From IMG/VR virus record IMGVR_UViG_3300020190_000201, positions 1 to 34,152 of that record: DNA of 34,152 bases; one strand, given 5' to 3'. Positions 2,507 through 9,295 of the stretch are shown piece by piece. Below the pieces are notes generated by a model, which saw nothing but the letters and a program-made list of their open reading frames with translations, was not told the DNA's origin and did no database searches. The position numbers and the translations under genes were made by a program. The number at the start of each line of letters is the position of its first letter. Position 1 is the first letter of the stretch. Origin of the DNA: a virus.

Positions 2507-3247
2507 ATGGCAAAGAAGATTCACGTAAGTAATGGAGCAATTGTAACCGATGTTACCAGCACCCGTCAGTATGTTAAGGAGTTGAAAAAGACTCAAGGCT
2601 TATCCAAAGAGGTAGAGCAATCATTAGCAACCAAGGCGCAAGCAGGAGACATTGCAGCACGCAACCAACTTGTAGAAGCCAATCTTAAATTTGCGATCCA
2701 GGTAGCTCGTCAATATCAAGGCATGGGCTTAGAGTTAGAAGACCTCATTGCATTTGCCAACGTTGGACTCTTTGAAGCAGCAGAACGCTTTGATGCATCC
2801 AAGAACGTTAAGTTTATTACCTTTGCAGTATGGTATATCAGAGCCGAGTTGCAAAAGGCACTCAATGATTTGTCCCGTGTAGTTAGGATCCCTTCGCATC
2901 GTACCAGCACCGAAGCATTCTCAACCAAGAGCATTCACACGCCGATTGGCGATGATGAAAACAAAGAGACGTGGGCAGACCGACACTTAGAAGCTGAGGC
3001 ATCTCGTAGCGCGAGAGACTACAATGACCTTCGCTTTGATTTGCAACGCGCTTTGAGGCAATTGCCTGAGAAGCAACGCGAAGCATTGACTCGCTTCTAT
3101 GGTATTGATCGTGAGTATGCACAGTGCATGGAGCAGATTGCCGAAGAACTCAATGTTACCGGAGAGCGTGCACGACAATTGGTTAGAGCAGCTGAGAAGA
3201 ACATTGCAACACTACCAGGCATTGAATTGCTAGAACAATATCTCTAA
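2507..3247 (+). CDS. RpoD-like RNA polymerase sigma factor, 246 aa
   Basis: A sigma-70 family factor that would redirect host RNA polymerase to phage promoters. Residues 15-50 resemble region 1.2. Residues 51-120 are region 2 (ARNQLVEANLKFAIQVA, then LEDLIAFANVGLFEAAERFD and ITFAVWYIRAELQKAL for regions 2.2-2.4). VVRIPSH at 125-131 marks region 3. Residues 182-236 are region 4 with a helix-turn-helix (MEQIAEELNVTGERARQLV). It has no long acidic region 1.1. It is the only recognisable sigma factor in the early module; a gp55-like factor lies at 25502. It probably drives the ATTAGGATC promoters or a middle class; which one is inference. Confidence 0.93.
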   Translation: MAKKIHVSNGAIVTDVTSTRQYVKELKKTQGLSKEVEQSLATKAQAGDIAARNQLVEANLKFAIQVARQYQGMGLELEDLIAFANVGLFEAAERFDASKNVKFITFAVWYIRAELQKALNDLSRVVRIPSHRTSTEAFSTKSIHTPIGDDENKETWADRHLEAEASRSARDYNDLRFDLQRALRQLPEKQREALTRFYGIDREYAQCMEQIAEELNVTGERARQLVRAAEKNIATLPGIELLEQYL

Positions 3248-3327
3248 AAAAAGTTTAAAAAAGTTTAAAAAAAGTTTAAAAAAGTTGCCAAAAAGGTTGG
3301 ATCGCATTGATATTATCGGTATCTTTA
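3246..3327 (+). promoter_or_regulatory. Early promoter with four phased A-tracts, for the gene at 3350
   Basis: A-tracts start at 3246, 3257, 3267 and 3278 (periods 11, 10, 11 bases). A variant box GGTTGGATCGCATTGA is at 3295-3310 and the core GTATCTTTA at 3319-3327. GGATC to core is 20 bases, as in the other copies. Confidence 0.65.
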
Positions 3328-3349
3328 AGTATAATAAAAAATAAGAGAT

Positions 3350-3487
3350 ATGAAAAAAGGAGAAATTTTAGCATTAGCAGTAATCGGAGTTGCATTTGTT
3401 GGCGTGACGTTATTAGCATTTGGCAATCCGGTAGGAGTCTTTGTTGTAGGCGGAGCATTAATGAGTGGTCAATTATTGATTAGCTGA
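3350..3487 (+). CDS. Small membrane protein, 45 aa, two hydrophobic segments
   Basis: It starts at the conserved leader AAGAGATATG. The product is almost entirely hydrophobic: EILALAVIGVAFVGVTLLAF, then NPVG, then VFVVGGALMSGQLLI. This suggests a helical hairpin in the membrane, with a KK start. It is first in a three-gene operon (3350, 3489, 3594). Role unknown; superinfection or lysis-related functions are possible but nothing in the sequence decides it. Confidence 0.6.
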   Translation: MKKGEILALAVIGVAFVGVTLLAFGNPVGVFVVGGALMSGQLLIS

Positions 3488-3488
3488 T

Positions 3489-3587
3489 ATGATACCACAA
3501 GGCATGACACCGGAAGAGTTCCTACGGGTAGTGACTCAAGCCACCTTAGCAGTAGAAGCAGTAATCTATTCAGAAATTTATAACTAA
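3489..3587 (+). CDS. Hypothetical peptide, 32 aa
   Basis: The ATG lies one base after the stop of the membrane protein. The product starts MIPQGMTPEEFLRVVTQ and ends AVEAVIYSEIYN, a likely single amphipathic helix. No independent promoter or recognised family. It is supported only by its position in a tight operon and the absence of any competing frame. Confidence 0.45.
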   Translation: MIPQGMTPEEFLRVVTQATLAVEAVIYSEIYN

Positions 3588-3593
3588 GAAGCA

Positions 3594-3806
3594 ATGACAA
3601 GAAACCAAATATTCAAAGCGGCCTGCGTATTACGGGCATCGGACTTCTTAAACCTTATCGAGCACAATGGAGTGGACTTCGAGATCTTGATTCGCCATTC
3701 TCAGGATTATCCTGCAGATCCTAATGAAGGTATGCTGCATGTAATAGTCGAAGGATACCAGTTCACTGAGTCTTTAACATTCTTTAATGGCGAATTAACC
3801 GACTAA
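3594..3806 (+). CDS. Hypothetical early protein, 70 aa
   Basis: Third gene of the operon that starts at 3350, six bases after the upstream stop. The product (MTRNQIFKAACVLRASDFLN ... EGMLHVIVEGYQFTESLTFF) looks like two helices followed by a beta hairpin. No motif is recognised. The stop runs directly into phased A-tracts of the next promoter. Confidence 0.65.
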   Translation: MTRNQIFKAACVLRASDFLNLIEHNGVDFEILIRHSQDYPADPNEGMLHVIVEGYQFTESLTFFNGELTD

Positions 3807-3928
3807 AAAAAGTTTAAAAAAGTTTAAAAAAAGTTACCAAAAGATTAGGATCGCATTGAAAAAGTCCTTATCTTTATTATAAGGAAATAAGGGAATAGTC
3901 CCACAATTTAAAACCAAAAAAGAGAGTT
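3805..3928 (+). promoter_or_regulatory. Early promoter with phased A-tracts and 5' hairpin, for the gene at 3929
   Basis: A-tracts start at 3805, 3816 and 3826. GATTAGGATCGCATTGA is at 3843-3859 and TTATCTTTA at 3868-3876 (24-base spacing). The 5' UTR then has GGGAATAGTCCC (4-bp stem, 3891-3902) followed by CAATTTAAAACC, a combination that recurs before 4398 and 6327. Confidence 0.65.
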
Positions 3929-4312
3929 ATGAAAAAAGAAAATTTAATTGCACAGTTAGAAGCAGCAAAGGCGTTGACTTCAGTAGTATCAATCGACAAT
4001 GTGATTGCATTGATTAATAGCTTAGAGCCAGAAGTGCGTGAAGTGAAGACAGTAGGCATCAATGACGAAAGCTTTGAAAAGATAATGGAAAAGGTTGGCG
4101 ATGCAATAAGATGCCTCAGATCGGATCGTGTAGTAGACTTTGACTCAGCCCAATTCTGTATCAATTACAATAATTGTGTTGAATTAGAAGATGTTGAGTT
4201 TGATTCAGATTACATTGAAAATTCAATCCGCGAAGAATTAGAGACGCTCGTTGAAGTCGAATCTGAGGAGACAGATGACAATGATCCAAGCACAGGCACC
4301 TTCCAAAATTAA
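3929..4312 (+). CDS. Hypothetical early protein, 127 aa, acidic
   Basis: The RBS is AAAAGAGAGTTATG. The product begins MKKENLIAQLEAAKALTSVVS (helix), has a central ESFEKIMEKVGDAIRCLRSDRVVDFDSA and ends in a long acidic tail (LETLVEVESEETDDNDPSTG). Not recognised. The acidic tail could mimic nucleic acid, which is speculation. Five bases after the stop lies the element CATATCTCTC, complementary to the common early leader. Confidence 0.7.
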   Translation: MKKENLIAQLEAAKALTSVVSIDNVIALINSLEPEVREVKTVGINDESFEKIMEKVGDAIRCLRSDRVVDFDSAQFCINYNNCVELEDVEFDSDYIENSIREELETLVEVESEETDDNDPSTGTFQN

Positions 4313-4317
4313 TGTAA

Positions 4318-4400
4318 CATATCTCTCCAAATAGTCCAAAGCCCCAGCAGCAATGTTGGGGCATGCGGACGTGAAAACCAATTTAAAAAAGAGAGATATG
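4318..4400 (+). promoter_or_regulatory. Intergenic RNA element: anti-leader sequence, hairpin, leader
   Basis: CATATCTCTC (4318-4327) is the exact reverse complement of GAGAGATATG (4391-4400), which contains the start codon of the next gene. Between them is a hairpin GCCCCA/TGGGGC (4341-4346 with 4357-4362). If paired, the start of the 4398 gene would be hidden in transcripts from upstream. Function is inferred. Confidence 0.45.
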
Positions 4401-4718
4401 AAAAAGTTTAGTCAAGTTTGTGTTTGGCCCGCAACTATCATCGGTAAGTCCAACATTAAAGATTTCGAAAAGTGGGCGAAAGAAGAATTCAGTGTTCGTG
4501 TAAAGTATTGTGAAGAAGTGGAAACATTACCTACACCTGGTGAACCAAATACTGGTGGAAGAAATGATGTTTTTTTCAGAGTCCACGAAAACGATATCCC
4601 AAAGTTTGCCGTACCTCGTTTACGAATTGGTATTCGTTGGTGGGAGGATGTATTACTTAATGGCGGCGGTGTTCTCTATCCTGAAGATGTTTTGAAAAGA
4701 TACCCTAAAACTTGGTAA
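4398..4718 (+). CDS. Hypothetical early protein, 106 aa
   Basis: The start is set at the ATG of GAGAGATATG; an in-frame ATG at 4353 lies inside the upstream hairpin and is unlikely. The product (MKKFSQVCVWPATIIG ... DFEKWAKEEFSVRVKYCEEV) continues to RLRIGIRWWEDVLLNGGGVL and YPEDVLKRYPKTW. It appears as a small alpha/beta protein. Family not recognised. It belongs to the operon from the promoter at 3805 and is followed three bases later by the gene at 4721. Confidence 0.65.
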   Translation: MKKFSQVCVWPATIIGKSNIKDFEKWAKEEFSVRVKYCEEVETLPTPGEPNTGGRNDVFFRVHENDIPKFAVPRLRIGIRWWEDVLLNGGGVLYPEDVLKRYPKTW

Positions 4719-4720
4719 CT

Positions 4721-4912
4721 ATGAAAAAGTTTAAACGTTACCAAGCCAACCTCAAGTTAGTAGGCAATCAAGTATTTTCTTATACCACTCATGTAGCAAC
4801 CATTGAAGGCGCCACATTGCGCATATTAGGCACCTGGAGCAAGACAACCACCAAACATGTTAATTATGTAGCGGCTCAGTTAGGCCTTACAAAGATGTAC
4901 ACCGAGTTCTAA
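4721..4912 (+). CDS. Hypothetical early protein, 63 aa, basic
   Basis: ATG at 4721 is chosen over an in-frame TTG at 4712 that overlaps the upstream gene. The product MKKFKRYQANLKLVGNQVFS ... TTHVATIEGATLRILGTWSK is basic and mostly beta, ending VNYVAAQLGLTKMYTEF. Function not recognised. Its stop lies in the 33-base repeat (4908-4940) that is shared with the end of the gene at 1223. Confidence 0.6.
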   Translation: MKKFKRYQANLKLVGNQVFSYTTHVATIEGATLRILGTWSKTTTKHVNYVAAQLGLTKMYTEF

Positions 4913-4981
4913 ATTGTGAATAACTTTTTCAAAAAAAGTTCACAAAAAGGTTGTTAGATTGAATAAAAATACTTATCTTTA
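4908..4981 (+). promoter_or_regulatory. Early promoter (degenerate box) for the ATPase gene
   Basis: The AT inverted repeat AACTTTTTC/AAAAAAAGTT is followed by a weak box (GGTTGTTAGATTGA, 4949-4962) and a perfect core TTATCTTTA at 4973-4981. Confidence 0.55.
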
Positions 4982-5003
4982 AGTAAATAAAAAAATAAGA
5001 GAT

Positions 5004-5948
5004 ATGAAAAATGTATTTGAAGCAGTAAGAGTAAAAGGCAAGCTATTGGCGAAGAACACTACCACTGGTGAAATAGCGCCTAAGAATTTAATTCGACACG
5101 TTCAATTGTTGAATGCCGAAAAGAATCGCGAAGTATTGTTTGTATCAGCAACGGGCCGAGTAACCCGACTACCAGCAGCAGAAGCAGGAGTTGCACTTAC
5201 TCCGGCACCGGTAATGAAGTTGTCATTCCTTTCTGTCAAAGAGTCACAATGTCCGGATGAGATGTTTAAGAACATTGAGCGACTCACTAAAATGGTTGGG
5301 CGTGGATTGCAACCATCATTGGTTATCACCGGCGGTGCAGGTACCGGCAAGACGCATATTGTAAAGAGCACTTTAGAAGAGATGGGCCTCAAAGAATCCA
5401 CAGACTTTGTTCACTTCAAAGGTCGTGCTACCGCAGCCGGTCTCTTTGTTACCCTTTATGAGAACAATGACAAGATCATTGTGTTGGATGATTGTGATTC
5501 TGTATTCAAAGACGATGATGCTGTGAACATCCTCAAAGCTGCACTTGATTCCTACGACACACGCAAGATCTCTTACATCAGCACCAAGTCACTCAAAGAC
5601 GAGTTTGGTTGTGAAGTGCCACGTCACTTTGAGTTTTCAGGCCGCGTTGTATTCATTAGCAACATCAGCCAAAGCCGCTTGGATGAAGCAATCCGCTCAC
5701 GTAGCTTTGTAGCAGATGTTGATTTGACCAACGAGCAAATGTTTGAGCGCATTGAGCAATTGATGGAGAAGATGGAAAGCCGAGTTCCTGCAGCTGCAAA
5801 GGCCCAAGCATTGGAATTGATGAAGGAGCTTGATGCTGAGTTTGAAATTGAAATCAACCTCCGTAGCTTCATCAAAGCGGCTCGCATTTGTGCAATGGGC
5901 TTTGAAAATCCTAAGATGATGGTAGCAGAGCAAATTTGTAAATTGTAA
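5004..5948 (+). CDS. AAA+ ATPase, 314 aa
   Basis: A P-loop ATPase of the AAA+ type. Walker A GGAGTGKT is at residues 110-117 and Walker B IIVLDDCD at 158-165. The sensor-1 segment VVFISN ends in N220, and there are arginine-finger candidates in IRSRSF (R231, R233). Residues 1-75 form a separate N-terminal domain; the C-terminal 70 residues are helical. It starts at the conserved leader behind its own early promoter and is by far the largest early gene besides the sigma factor. Phage AAA+ proteins of this size often remodel DNA or protein complexes; the substrate is not evident. The gene is followed at once by CATATCTCTC and a GNRA-looped hairpin. Confidence 0.85.
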   Translation: MKNVFEAVRVKGKLLAKNTTTGEIAPKNLIRHVQLLNAEKNREVLFVSATGRVTRLPAAEAGVALTPAPVMKLSFLSVKESQCPDEMFKNIERLTKMVGRGLQPSLVITGGAGTGKTHIVKSTLEEMGLKESTDFVHFKGRATAAGLFVTLYENNDKIIVLDDCDSVFKDDDAVNILKAALDSYDTRKISYISTKSLKDEFGCEVPRHFEFSGRVVFISNISQSRLDEAIRSRSFVADVDLTNEQMFERIEQLMEKMESRVPAAAKAQALELMKELDAEFEIEINLRSFIKAARICAMGFENPKMMVAEQICKL

Positions 5949-5949
5949 A

Positions 5950-5993
5950 CATATCTCTCAAATAAAAAGATCCGGCGTCGCAAGGCGTCGGAT
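5950..5993 (+). terminator. Anti-leader element and GCAA-capped hairpin after the ATPase gene
   Basis: CATATCTCTC is at 5950-5959. A 10-bp stem with two G-U pairs and a GCAA tetraloop is at 5970-5993 (ATCCGGCGTC/GGCGTCGGAT, sharing one G with the loop). No clear U-tract follows, so termination may be weak; it may also be a 3' stability element. Confidence 0.45.
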
Positions 5994-6009
5994 TCTATTG
6001 TAAAAAAAA

Positions 6010-6064
6010 AAGTAAAAAAAGTTACCAAAAGATTAGGATCATGTTGATATTATTGGTATCTTTA
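6010..6064 (+). promoter_or_regulatory. Early promoter for genes 6089-6774
   Basis: A-tracts precede GATTAGGATCATGTTGAT (6031-6048) and the core GTATCTTTA (6056-6064); spacing is 24 bases. Confidence 0.65.
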
Positions 6065-6088
6065 TATTATAAATAAAAACAAAGAGAT

Positions 6089-6277
6089 ATGAAAACAAAT
6101 GATTTGAACATTGAAAACATTGACCCAGAATTGCTTCACAAGTCTATGGAAAAGGTTTTACGTAAAAGAAATGCAGAATTATTTATTGATACACTATCTG
6201 CAAAACTTACTGATGACCAACGTAAACATTTGATTAAAGTGCTTTGTAATTATGAAAAATTTTTAGATCAACAATAA
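6089..6277 (+). CDS. Hypothetical early protein, 62 aa, helical
   Basis: The leader is AAAGAGATATG. The product (MKTNDLNIENIDPELLHKSM ... AKLTDDQRKHLIKVLCNYEKFLDQQ) is highly charged and helical. No recognised family. It is first of a three-gene operon with 6327 and 6580. Confidence 0.65.
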   Translation: MKTNDLNIENIDPELLHKSMEKVLRKRNAELFIDTLSAKLTDDQRKHLIKVLCNYEKFLDQQ

Positions 6278-6285
6278 ATTAAAAA

Positions 6286-6325
6286 CGAGGGGTGCGACTC
6301 GGTAACGCACACTAATTTAAAACGC
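6286..6325 (+). promoter_or_regulatory. Possible RNA pseudoknot in the 5' UTR of the gene at 6327
   Basis: CGAG (6286-6289) can pair with CTCG (6298-6301), and GTGCG (6292-6296) with CGCAC (6306-6310). The interleaved order is that of an H-type pseudoknot. It is followed by CTAATTTAAAAC, as after the hairpins at 3891 and 4341. No known riboswitch class was recognised. Confidence 0.35.
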
Positions 6326-6326
6326 T

Positions 6327-6563
6327 ATGAAAACAAAATTAAAAACAACCAAAGAAACAAGTAAAACATTCACGATGACATTTGAATTTAATGACATTGA
6401 TGAATTGAAAGAATTAAAGGCTTTATCAATTTTACTCGGTAATTTCAATCCAATGCGAAAAGAAATGACCAATGGAAATGCAATTTTAGATATTCTGCAA
6501 GAAGAAAAAGAAAATAGTGTATTGAGTAATATTGTTTTAAAAATTTCAAATCAATTAATATAA
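6327..6563 (+). CDS. Hypothetical early protein, 78 aa
   Basis: The ATG follows the structured leader at 6286-6325 and lacks the usual AAGAGATATG. The N-terminus is threonine/lysine rich (MKTKLKTTKETSKTFTMTFE), then FNDIDELKELKALSILLGNF, and it ends in a helix VLSNIVLKISNQLI. Not recognised. It may be regulated at translation through the structured leader. Confidence 0.6.
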   Translation: MKTKLKTTKETSKTFTMTFEFNDIDELKELKALSILLGNFNPMRKEMTNGNAILDILQEEKENSVLSNIVLKISNQLI

Positions 6564-6579
6564 ATAAAAACAAAGAGAT

Positions 6580-6774
6580 ATGACATTAACCGTAGAAGCA
6601 TTAGAGAGAATGGATGGATTGGTTAACGTGGAAACCACAAAGCGCTTGCAAGGTGCAGTAGCATCCATCACAATGGCATTGATAGCAGATGGCTTTGATG
6701 ATAACGAGATTGAAGAATTCATCGGCCAATTGACTCGTTGGGTTATTGACGATGTAACGGATGACTTATGCTAA
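6580..6774 (+). CDS. Hypothetical early protein, 64 aa, paralogue of the 1223 product
   Basis: It starts at AAAGAGATATG. The product contains VASITMALIADGFDDNEIEE and VIDDVTDDLC. It aligns over its length with residues 5-65 of the protein at 1223 (ADGFD followed by an acidic helix and VD/DD-rich end) but lacks that protein's Cys tail. Helical and acidic, function unknown. Confidence 0.65.
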   Translation: MTLTVEALERMDGLVNVETTKRLQGAVASITMALIADGFDDNEIEEFIGQLTRWVIDDVTDDLC

Positions 6775-6784
6775 AAAAAGTTTA

Positions 6785-6823
6785 CAAAAGATTAGGATAA
6801 TTGAAATAAAATACTTAAATTTA
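6785..6823 (+). promoter_or_regulatory. Early promoter for genes at 6846 and 7082
   Basis: GATTAGGATAATTGA (6790-6804; shortened box) and TTAAATTTA (6815-6823). The 24-base spacing is kept in spite of the shortened box. Confidence 0.65.
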
Positions 6824-6845
6824 TATAAATTAAAAAGAGAGAGAT

Positions 6846-7058
6846 ATGAAAAACATTAATGAAATCATCCAAGACCAATTAGCCGTATTAGACAGAGGCG
6901 TCGTAAGAACTCCAGATAAGTTTGAGCACCTGCAGGCATTCGCACGCTCCAATCATGGAAACAGTGACATCCTCCTAATGCAAATGTCAATGCAGTACGG
7001 TATGCGTCTAGCATTAGAATACTTGCAACAAGAGTTAGAAGTAGAAGTAGGTAAGTAG
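6846..7058 (+). CDS. Hypothetical early protein, 70 aa
   Basis: The leader AAAAAGAGAGAGATATG contains a perfect 10-base complement of the CATATCTCTC elements at 4318 and 5950. The product (MKNINEIIQDQLAVLDRGVV ... MQYGMRLALEYLQQELEVEVGK) is helical and acidic. Family not recognised. It is first of the last two-gene early operon. Confidence 0.65.
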   Translation: MKNINEIIQDQLAVLDRGVVRTPDKFEHLQAFARSNHGNSDILLMQMSMQYGMRLALEYLQQELEVEVGK

Positions 7059-7081
7059 TATTAACGAATAATATAAGAGAC

Positions 7082-7267
7082 ATGTACGCACGCAAAGACA
7101 TAGAAAGAATATTCCTTAATCTTAATTCACTCACAGATCGATTAGAAGACCTGCAACAAGACTTAATGCCAGACAGCTTTCATGTAGCCCGACAGGTAGA
7201 ACATCTTAGAGCCACGCTGCAGCATATAGAAAGAGAGATGGAGTCAGAGATAGCCAAGGTGCAATAG
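7082..7267 (+). CDS. Hypothetical coiled-coil protein, 61 aa
   Basis: The leader is TAAGAGACATG. Heptad-like leucines in IFLNLNSLTDRLEDLQQDL and VEHLRATLQHIEREMESEI suggest two helices forming a coiled coil. It is the last gene of the early module, followed about 25 bases later by the strong terminator at 7293. Function unknown. Confidence 0.65.
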   Translation: MYARKDIERIFLNLNSLTDRLEDLQQDLMPDSFHVARQVEHLRATLQHIEREMESEIAKVQ

Positions 7268-7292
7268 CATATCAAGTATAAGGGGTATCAAT

Positions 7293-7319
7293 GGGGGGTG
7301 TAATAGCCCCCCTTTTTTT
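7293..7319 (+). terminator. Strong intrinsic terminator ending the early module
   Basis: Stem GGGGGG (7293-7298) with CCCCCC (7307-7312), an 8-base loop and a T-tract of seven (7313-7319). Confidence 0.85.
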
Positions 7320-7445
7320 ATGGGGCAGCCCCCCTGATTAGACCCCCATTAGCCCCCCATGTTTTAGGGGGGTGGGGGTGGGTTTCGTTAAGGGGTAAAA
7401 GACCCCCTGGTTGCGGAGGGAGGTTATATATGTTTTTCTCGCACG

Positions 7446-7465
7446 GGTAAAAATTTTGCTATATA
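7446..7465 (+). repeat. 20-base intergenic repeat, copy 1
   Basis: GGTAAAAATTTTGCTATATA matches 9334-9353 at 18 of 20 positions. Both copies lie 110-155 bases upstream of a tagged virion gene. Confidence 0.5.
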
Positions 7466-7562
7466 GGTGCTCTTTATTTAAATGACGGTGTCATAAAGGG
7501 TTCGCCCAACCAATTAGTACCTCATGATATCCTTCAGCCTGGCTCGAAAACACGCCTTCCTG

Positions 7563-7570
7563 ATATTTAT
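7563..7570 (+). promoter_or_regulatory. Late promoter motif ATATTTAT
   Basis: ATATTTAT followed by ATTAAAT, 29 bases before the start codon at 7600. The same octamer precedes a dozen virion-region genes. Confidence 0.5.
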
Positions 7571-7599
7571 ATTAAATTACTCTGATTAAAGGATATATC

Positions 7600-7959
7600 A
7601 TGAAAAAATTAGAACAAGTACTTGCAGAAAATATGCGACGTTTTAGTACTAAAAATTTACGAGAAGGTGTTCGAATCGGCCTAGTTGGCGTGATTCCAAA
7701 TGTTGATTATTTTACCAAGAATCCAACCGGGACACTAGTTGTAGATGATATCGGTAGTGTATTGCAGTCAGTAAACAACGAGATGGTTGATGAAGATAAC
7801 CGCAATAATAAAATGTATAGCGATCAACTCGTACGAGGTGGCGAATACCAATACCAATTTGTTCCGAATGTCAAAACCATGCGCGCACCAGCTGGCGAGC
7901 CCGTTGTAAATCTAATGCAAAATGGCAAACCGGTTAATAGTTTTATGCCGATAAAATAA
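7600..7959 (+). CDS. Tagged virion-associated protein candidate, 119 aa
   Basis: First gene of the virion module. The N-terminus MKKLEQVLAENMRRFSTKNL carries the tag LAENMxRFxxKNL, shared with the minus-strand proteins at 19706 and 21277. The L-A-E triplet fits the (L/I)xE motif of T4-type prohead proteases. The rest (GVRIGLVGVIPNVDYFTKNP ... YQYQFVPNVKTMRAPAGEP) is not recognised. A late promoter motif lies upstream. Packaging into the capsid is inferred from the tag only. Confidence 0.7.
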   Translation: MKKLEQVLAENMRRFSTKNLREGVRIGLVGVIPNVDYFTKNPTGTLVVDDIGSVLQSVNNEMVDEDNRNNKMYSDQLVRGGEYQYQFVPNVKTMRAPAGEPVVNLMQNGKPVNSFMPIK

Positions 7960-7969
7960 TGCCATCAGC

Positions 7970-8521
7970 ATGATCCGTCTACGAGACATATTAACGGAAA
8001 TCTCTTTGGCGAGCGTAGAACCCTACGCGACCCAATTTGTGTGGCGTCAACCTCACCCGGAAGACGACATATGGGAATCGGATTTTAACGCGGAAACGGC
8101 TAGCTCGTCGACGCATCGCATCAAAATGGTGATGCAACGTTGGAGAACCCCTGTACCTGACCATGAGTATGAATATCAATTTGCTTTCATGACGCGTGAC
8201 CGCAGCGATTCAGGATGGACCACTGCCAGCCATATGACCAACACAGCAGGCGCTGTTTCGGTGCTAGCGCTACTCAAAACAGTTGCGTTAGCTATACGCG
8301 ATTTTGCCGATCAACGGCCTGATTGTACGGTTATTGACATTACCGGGTCAGATCCCGCAGCACAGAAAGGCGAACAGAAGTCACGCATATATGCTGAATT
8401 GTTTCGAGAAAATGGAATGCATACGGAATTTACCATGAAATCCTATGGAGGTAAATTGTATTTAATAAGAATGGGTATACGGGGACGCACCGCAGATGCA
8501 ACGGGAGTAAGCGATGATTAA
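7970..8521 (+). CDS. Tagged protein of unknown function, 183 aa, GC-rich gene
   Basis: The N-terminus MIRLRDILTEIS matches the pattern MIxLxxLLxE seen in the following genes. The body (HEYEYQFAFMTRDRS ... ALLKTVALAIRDFADQRPDCTVIDITGSD ... RIYAELFRENG) has a compact alpha/beta layout that I associate with a phage protein family of unknown role. Base composition is unusual: 33 of 60 bases at 8041-8100 are G or C, against about 30% in the baseplate genes. That suggests recent acquisition. The stop overlaps the next start by eight bases. Confidence 0.7.
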   Translation: MIRLRDILTEISLASVEPYATQFVWRQPHPEDDIWESDFNAETASSSTHRIKMVMQRWRTPVPDHEYEYQFAFMTRDRSDSGWTTASHMTNTAGAVSVLALLKTVALAIRDFADQRPDCTVIDITGSDPAAQKGEQKSRIYAELFRENGMHTEFTMKSYGGKLYLIRMGIRGRTADATGVSDD

Positions 8522-8831
8522 ATTGAAAACATTGATGATGGAACAACCACAAGGCAACACAATGTCTGAAGGTGGATTATTAGATGTATTAGAACAATAC
8601 AAATCAATATTCGGTGTCGCAATTCAAAGTGTTGAATCGCTACAATATGATATTGATACCGAAGACATACTTAGAAAAAATGCTATCACATTGCTCAAAG
8701 CATACGTTGACTATCTTGATGCAACACGCGAAACATTTAATACCTATGGTGATTCACAAAATTTAGATGACATCATTTTGGATGCAACGGATGGAATAAA
8801 AACTTCAATTGATAGCAATTTAGAATATTAA
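8514..8831 (+). CDS. Tagged hypothetical protein, 105 aa
   Basis: The start overlaps the end of the upstream gene, indicating an operon. The N-terminus MIKLKTLMMEQPQGN fits the recurring tag, with a possible cut after M-M-E. The remainder (LLDVLEQYKSIFGVAIQSVE ... ITLLKAYVDYLDATRETFN) is acidic and helical, probably a helical bundle. No named family. Two bases after its stop the next tagged gene starts. Confidence 0.65.
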   Translation: MIKLKTLMMEQPQGNTMSEGGLLDVLEQYKSIFGVAIQSVESLQYDIDTEDILRKNAITLLKAYVDYLDATRETFNTYGDSQNLDDIILDATDGIKTSIDSNLEY

Positions 8832-8833
8832 TC

Positions 8834-9295
8834 ATGATACAATTAAAACGATTATTAATGGAATCAGACCCAAAGCTGGGTACTGGTAAAAAACCTGCAG
8901 GTTCGGGTAGAAGATTGTATACAGACGAGAACCCAAGTGATACGGTATCTGTAAAGTTTAAAACAAAACAAGATATTGTTGACACATTAAACAAAGATAG
9001 TTTCAAATCTAAACCCCATAAGAGACAATCACAAATTATTAATTTGATTCATCAGCGAGTTAGAGCCGCATATCAAAATGCAAAAGACCCCGAAACAAAA
9101 CAAAGGTTAAAACGAGGTCTTGATTATATTGAATCAGTGAAAGAAAAGTCAAAAGAAAAAACTGCAAGATTACAAAAACAAAAACAGAATGAAGCAGAAT
9201 TGACAGAAAAGTGTTGGACAGGTTACACCAAAAAGGGTATGAAAACAATGTTTGGTAAAAGATATCCTAATTGTGTTAAAAAAACAAAGAAATAA
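8834..9295 (+). CDS. Tagged protein with C-terminal CWTGYTKKGMK motif, 153 aa
   Basis: The N-terminus MIQLKRLLMESDPKLG has the tag with L-M-E followed by S, a good fit to the T4 gp21 cleavage rule. A central basic domain contains GSGRRLYTDENPSDTV and a helix QRLKRGLDYIESVKE. The tail ELTEKCWTGYTKKGMKTMFG ends KRYPNCVKKTKK. I know this two-cysteine CWxGYxxxGxK tail from many T4-like phage virion proteins of marine and freshwater metagenomes. Role inside the virion is probable; exact function unknown. Confidence 0.7.
   Translation: MIQLKRLLMESDPKLGTGKKPAGSGRRLYTDENPSDTVSVKFKTKQDIVDTLNKDSFKSKPHKRQSQIINLIHQRVRAAYQNAKDPETKQRLKRGLDYIESVKEKSKEKTARLQKQKQNEAELTEKCWTGYTKKGMKTMFGKRYPNCVKKTKK

Follow-up and report, generated by a model that had tools for sequence, protein, structure and literature searches.

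Candidate antisense RNA elements directed against a shared early-gene leader in a group of T4-like phages

The window analyzed here, a 34,152-nt stretch of DNA from an uncultured virus in IMG/VR, carries a 10-mer, CATATCTCTC, in the 3' UTRs of two putative early genes. Both copies are likely part of a trans-acting antisense RNA system that the phage encodes against the leader shared by its own early genes. We propose that this system has two kinds of carriers. The first would be a dedicated structured noncoding RNA (ncRNA) that heads the early cluster and lies shortly before the start of the window. Its hairpin and terminator loops would expose the complement of the upstream part of the leader (CUCUCUUAUU); in some phages, it would also present the complement of the start-codon part, CAUAUCUC, within a loop or an unpaired stretch. 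The second would be two early mRNAs, in whose 3' UTRs CAUAUCUCUC lies between the stop codon and a hairpin. By pairing, these RNAs would mask the leader with its start codon and block ribosome binding, the duplex might be marked for RNase III, and early translation would fall as the RNAs accumulate. We infer transcription, pairing in the cell, timing, and a repressive outcome, the last because of the position of the pairing and of known cases (LhrC and icaR). Early translation is thus probably repressed by the antisense RNAs, although pairing could in principle activate it instead. If this is true, a common leader and complementary RNAs make a simple global RNA timing device, which would account for the uniformity of the leaders and make the targets in each phage predictable from sequence alone.

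Two Anti-Leader 10-mers among the Early Genes

We take the region to be early from its gene content and position. Most genes of the putative early region share one leader, AAUAAGAGAUAUG, which spans the start codon. As originally predicted, the 10-mer matches the leaders of the region, where 13 genes begin with AAGAGATATG or GAGAGATATG, and it is the reverse complement of the GAGAGATATG leaders at 4391–4400 and 6839–6848. Its two copies, elements A and B, stand where they had been reported, just past stop codons and before hairpins; 5 nt separate element A from the stop of ORF 3929–4312, and 1 nt separates element B from that of ORF 5004–5948. The hairpins were found as described, but not the spacing of 10–13 nt: 6 and 9 nt lie between the elements and the outer stems. 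The features are as follows.

33–42, + strand: early leader AAGAGATATG of the first gene; AAATAAGAGA matches the ncRNA loop too
509–518, + strand: early leader AAGAGATATG
807–816, + strand: early leader AAGAGATATG
971–980, + strand: early leader AAGAGATATG
1216–1225, + strand: early leader AAGAGATATG
1838–1847, + strand: early leader AAGAGATATG
2141–2150, + strand: early leader AAGAGATATG
3343–3352, + strand: early leader AAGAGATATG
4318–4327, + strand: anti-leader element A, CATATCTCTC, in the 3' UTR of ORF 3929–4312; exact pattern match
4334–4370, + strand: hairpin A, GUCC-(internal loop)-8-bp stem-loop-GGAC, with no U-tract; alignment A2
4391–4400, + strand: leader GAGAGATATG of the gene whose start is at 4398; it complements element A exactly and pairs with it in the local fold
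4997–5006, + strand: early leader AAGAGATATG of the ATPase gene
5004–5948, + strand: AAA ATPase gene, T4 NrdC.10-like (Pfam AAA, 1.2e-06; phrog_1250, 4e-46)
5950–5959, + strand: anti-leader element B, CATATCTCTC, in the 3' UTR of the ATPase gene; exact match
5969–5994, + strand: hairpin B, following element B; predicted fold and alignment A3
6082–6091, + strand: early leader AAGAGATATG
6573–6582, + strand: early leader AAGAGATATG
6839–6848, + strand: early leader GAGAGATATG; exact complement of elements A and B

With one mismatch allowed, the window contains 16 sites in 34 kb, against 1.8 expected from dinucleotide shuffles. Fourteen of them are leaders, and the only ones on the sense strand are elements A and B. 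Within the first 7.3 kb, the expected number of sense 10-mers is about 0, and none of 500 shuffles of that region reached two copies, in line with the original argument that such a pair is unlikely by chance. We also considered whether genes on the minus strand might begin at GAGAGATATG across from the elements and rejected this, as only very short frames are found there.

Conservation of the Elements in Related Phages

Relatives of the ATPase were taken from IMG/VR, giving 29 distinct relatives with 58–89% identity, in which genes were called mechanically. A tblastn search also found distant ATPase relatives in T4-like phages, one match being annotated nrdC.10. Conservation in related phages had been named as a test of the original prediction: element B, as CATATCTCTC or a near form, follows the ATPase stop codon in 23 of the 29 relatives, with some copies diverged or displaced, and element A is kept at the same place in 16 genomes. 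No element follows the ATPase stop in L015, L019, L025, L030, L083, and L086; in L019, L086, and L025, it is present in the ncRNA instead. An inserted tRNA or reading frame displaces element B in L021 and L082.

Element B is followed in relatives by a hairpin, for example CCGGCGTCGAAAGGCGTCGG. Hairpin B ends in a short UUU(C) run and is U-poor in most relatives; true U-tract terminators are seen in two places, at hairpin B of L090 and behind the sigma gene of L027. A strict pattern search for 3' UTRs gave no matches, the pattern being too narrow. Past hairpin B, at window positions 5995–6010, lies a tail, (C)T(A/G)CTGTAAAA, without a U-tract, which recurs in most relatives. At L021:7019–7130, a tRNA is flanked by two anti-leader elements. 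In L082, element B is doubled (CATATCTCTCAATAATATATCTCGG), and a homing-endonuclease-like frame (L082:6937–7530) lies between the ATPase stop and the element. A homing endonuclease as the carrier of element B was rejected, such a frame being found in L082 alone.

Hairpin A shows covariation: 97.7% of its pair cells are standard, four pairs are changed on both sides, and none of 500 shuffles reached its covariation score. The gene downstream of element A varies among phages while the element and its hairpin stay constant; therefore, the element is a feature of the 3' UTR and not of the next gene. Sense copies of CATATCTCT number about one to three per contig, in contigs of up to 170 kb, and nearly all are at such sites. 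The backwards pattern, used as a control, occurs 0–1 times per contig, and leaders up to 12 times.

The clearest case for real pairing is L090, where, judging from the sequences, leader and element have changed together in one compensatory case. The ATPase leader of this phage, AGAGACATG, is matched by the element CATGTCTCT, and most of its other leaders are AGAGATATG. Since leaders differ so little, covariation between leader and element is nearly confined to L090. The ncRNA of L022 has CATGTCTCTC, yet there is no AGAGACATG leader within the stretch examined. The distant relative L030 has different leaders, such as AAAAAGAATATG, without AGAGA. In the 23 kb of L030 that were examined, there is no element, no ncRNA, and no AGAGATATG leader, and none of the matches listed there is an anti-leader sequence fitting its divergent leader. 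Matches over the whole L030 contig are few and scattered.

A Predicted Structured ncRNA Heading the Early Cluster

In 20 relatives, the early cluster is headed by a predicted structured ncRNA. L165 also has it, about 230 bases upstream of the point corresponding to window position 1, that is, outside the window. L165 and the window are 98–99% identical over the first 535 bases and over 966–1189, which shows that the phage of the window has this predicted ncRNA too. In a cmscan search against Rfam, the window had no match and the loci of ten relatives matched two tRNAs only. At gathering score, the ncRNA loci had no Rfam match, including to c4 antisense RNA, GOLLD, and ROOL, the latter two being much larger than the early-cluster ncRNA. 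This ncRNA is previously undescribed.

Anti-leader sequence is present in 19 of the 20 ncRNAs, at one to three sites each, as loops UUUCUCUCUCUUAUU and/or CAUAUCUC. Loop UUUCUCUCUCUUAUU is the complement of AAUAAGAGA, the leader segment that immediately precedes the start codon. It occurs, itself or in a near form, mostly in one or two hairpins per ncRNA, in many cases the terminator itself, so that about 20 different stems bear a nearly constant loop. In eight ncRNAs, CAUAUCUC or CAUGUCUC is present, either single-stranded or in a loop. The predicted probability of being unpaired is mostly 0.93–1.00 for the UUUCUCUCUCUUAUU loops; its mean is 0.87 for all 35 anti-leader stretches, compared with 0.45 over the full length of the RNAs. 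The start-codon element CAUAUCUCUC is about half unpaired in the predicted folds of the long ncRNAs (0.35–0.82). The L025 ncRNA has a single hairpin loop with two CAUAUCUCU and one CUCUCUUAU, and the loop of the L090 ncRNA contains CATATCTCTT, the exact complement of AAGAGATATG. L017 has an ncRNA that has lost the loop, and it keeps elements A and B. No ncRNA was found within 9.5 kb upstream in L027.

By their sequence, most of the ncRNAs have U-tract terminators and an AT-rich promoter-like sequence upstream. They hold further sequence beyond the anti-leader loops, for instance GACGGGGTCCGGG..CCCGGCGGATCG. A conserved module, GAC(A/G)GGGTCCGGG..CTCGAAAGAC..CCCGGCGGATCG, lies beside these loops in L155 (− strand), L020, L022, L135, and L138, and has no Rfam match. 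In L062 (1501–1574), which is the genome of L025, a tRNA-Met stands directly ahead of an ncRNA with two CATATCTCT in one loop. Several relatives have, before the head of the early cluster and upstream of the ncRNA, a repeat array with many TATTTTTAGA(C/T), as at L020:720–1020 and at about 6860–6680 of L077 (− strand). Another conserved noncoding stretch upstream of the early cluster, AGACTGAATAGGTTATATATCTCCCTGCCGGTCC..GGGGCATAGTCTC, was seen at L005:345, L007:1007, L081:167, and L024:970.

Complementarity of Early Leaders to the ncRNA

Complementarity was measured in 20 genomes as contiguous exact bases, early leaders being defined as starts with a promoter-like box (n = 241). At least 8 nt are complementary to the phage's own ncRNA in 66.8% of these early leaders; the controls gave 17.8% for other starts, 4.7% for ORF-internal windows, and 6.7% for shuffled ncRNAs. 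At least 9 nt are complementary in 48.5% of early leaders, against 1.2–1.9% for ORF-internal windows and shuffled ncRNAs. For the leaders of the window, the predicted pairing energy is about −7 to −16 kcal/mol with the L165 loop and about −11 to −16 kcal/mol with the 3' UTR element. All that unites the two different motifs is that they complement neighboring parts of one leader. At the level of sequence, then, the elements, their conservation, the predicted exposure of the ncRNA loops, and a complementarity to leaders far above the controls are established, and they support the original idea of a small-RNA seed acting in trans.

Alternative Explanations

We weighed the trans-acting reading against explanations confined to a single mRNA. 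Leaders were ranked with permutation tests in which relatives were counted without correction for shared ancestry. Element B could pair with the leader of its own mRNA and silence the ATPase gene only, in an autoregulation between 5' and 3' UTRs of the icaR type. We consider this unlikely, even though element B fits the ATPase leader better than most early leaders (mean rank 0.835, n = 20, permutation p < 1e-4, kinship ignored). The joint alteration of ATPase leader and element in L090 also speaks for it, as does L027, where complementarity extends past the ATG for the ATPase leader alone (GAGATATGCA). However, the ATPase leader also ranks high with element A (0.778), with CATATCTCT of the ncRNA (0.752), and with the ncRNA loops (0.721). 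As it is high for all anti-leader sequences, it is the canonical leader and not a private partner. Moreover, element A has no preference for the leader of its own gene (rank 0.416), and the ncRNA copies stand outside the ATPase mRNA. Sequestration in cis, by which the element would hide the next start codon in readthrough transcripts, had been proposed along with the seed. The structure prediction then suggested was run on the window, and the 10-mer at 4318 pairs perfectly with 4391–4400, in a 10-bp fold around hairpin A. This fold is poorly conserved in relatives: the next leader is an exact 9-mer complement at only 5 of 16 type-A sites, and L020 and L028 keep element A and its hairpin yet have no start codon downstream. 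The leader downstream of the ATPase gene has its own promoter-like site, and its rank with element B is at chance (0.545, p = 0.27). Sequestration in cis is thus not generally conserved, and we regard it as very improbable.

The trans-acting reading must also be set against those in which the leader match is incidental. CAUAUCUCUC and the hairpin might be a signal for protein or nuclease binding or for 3'-end processing, given that the 3' UTRs keep element and hairpin as a pair and that hairpin A covaries. Yet hairpins A and B, the ncRNA stems, and the L025 loop are mutually unrelated, and the second motif, CTCTCTTATT, unlike in sequence, is explained only as a complement of the same leader. 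The co-change of leader and element in L090 also speaks against such a signal, which we find quite improbable. Finally, purine-rich leaders are easier for CU-rich stretches to match, so that composition might create the complementarity by chance. The shuffle and database controls refute this explanation, to which we give practically no weight: dinucleotide-shuffled ncRNAs fall an order of magnitude short of the real ones, the two sense 10-mers were not reproduced by shuffling, and the 18-base loop pattern, searched against 2.9 million viral contigs, was found in 17, all of this phage group.

Comparison with Known Regulators

LhrC of Listeria has three redundant CU-rich sites, in a stem-loop, a single strand, and the terminator, and targets the translation start region (PMC4132741). 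Like LhrC and sRNAs of the RsaE/FsrA type, the phage ncRNA has redundant CU-rich sites in loops, single strands, or the terminator. As with LhrC, it complements the translation starts of several mRNAs above chance (66.8% vs. 4.7–6.7%). Unlike LhrC, a stress sRNA of bacteria whose motif is UCCC, it is phage encoded, unrelated in sequence, and fits one leader common to the early genes. In the icaR mRNA of Staphylococcus aureus, a 3' UTR motif blocks initiation and creates a substrate for RNase III (PMC3868564). The short 3' UTR motif described here is similarly complementary to a translation start, as the rank of element B with the ATPase leader illustrates. The target of the icaR motif is its own mRNA, whereas the 10-mer recurs downstream of different genes, is also present in a separate ncRNA, and is complementary to many mRNAs.

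Phage RNAs that pair with phage or host RNAs include 24B_1, c4 antisense RNA, and VpdS (PMC12197685; PMC2864571). These three are from temperate phages, and none is described in those papers as targeting the leader of a whole early set. The phage sRNAs reviewed to date have mostly one or few targets, often in temperate phages. GOLLD and ROOL are structured ncRNAs of unknown role, some of them in phages (PMC12286853). T4 RegA damps the translation of about 30 phage mRNAs at the start-codon region (PMC3014915). RegA is a protein, whereas the candidate in this phage group is an RNA. A search for RegA (PF01818) found it in 0 of 17 records of the group, which are possibly incomplete and in which a diverged RegA could be missed, and recovered the T4 control at E = 2.3e-75. 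The ncRNA and the 3' UTR seeds might together form a global switch, a whole-phage RNA regulon that would be the RNA counterpart of RegA; for this wider reading, we see the case as evenly balanced.

The Phage Group and Its Sampling

The window encodes T4-type baseplate proteins and has a sigma factor gene. Its genes are short, and many are preceded by an AT-rich promoter-like box (TTG..TAnnTTTA), which we take to be of the Bacteroidota type, the host being inferred. A comparison of window positions 3000–9000 with 50,697 phage records gave no near DNA match, and no cultured-phage record had one to the region. A scan of GTDB yielded no reliable host. It found one lake contig, from a Lake Pavin MAG in a Chloroflexi bin, where it is probably misbinned; the ATPase gene of this contig has the element too. 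In the window, a GC-rich stretch containing G runs and C runs (ggggggtgtaatagccccccttttttta..) at 7260–7440 separates the early genes from the next block and looks like a terminator or boundary.
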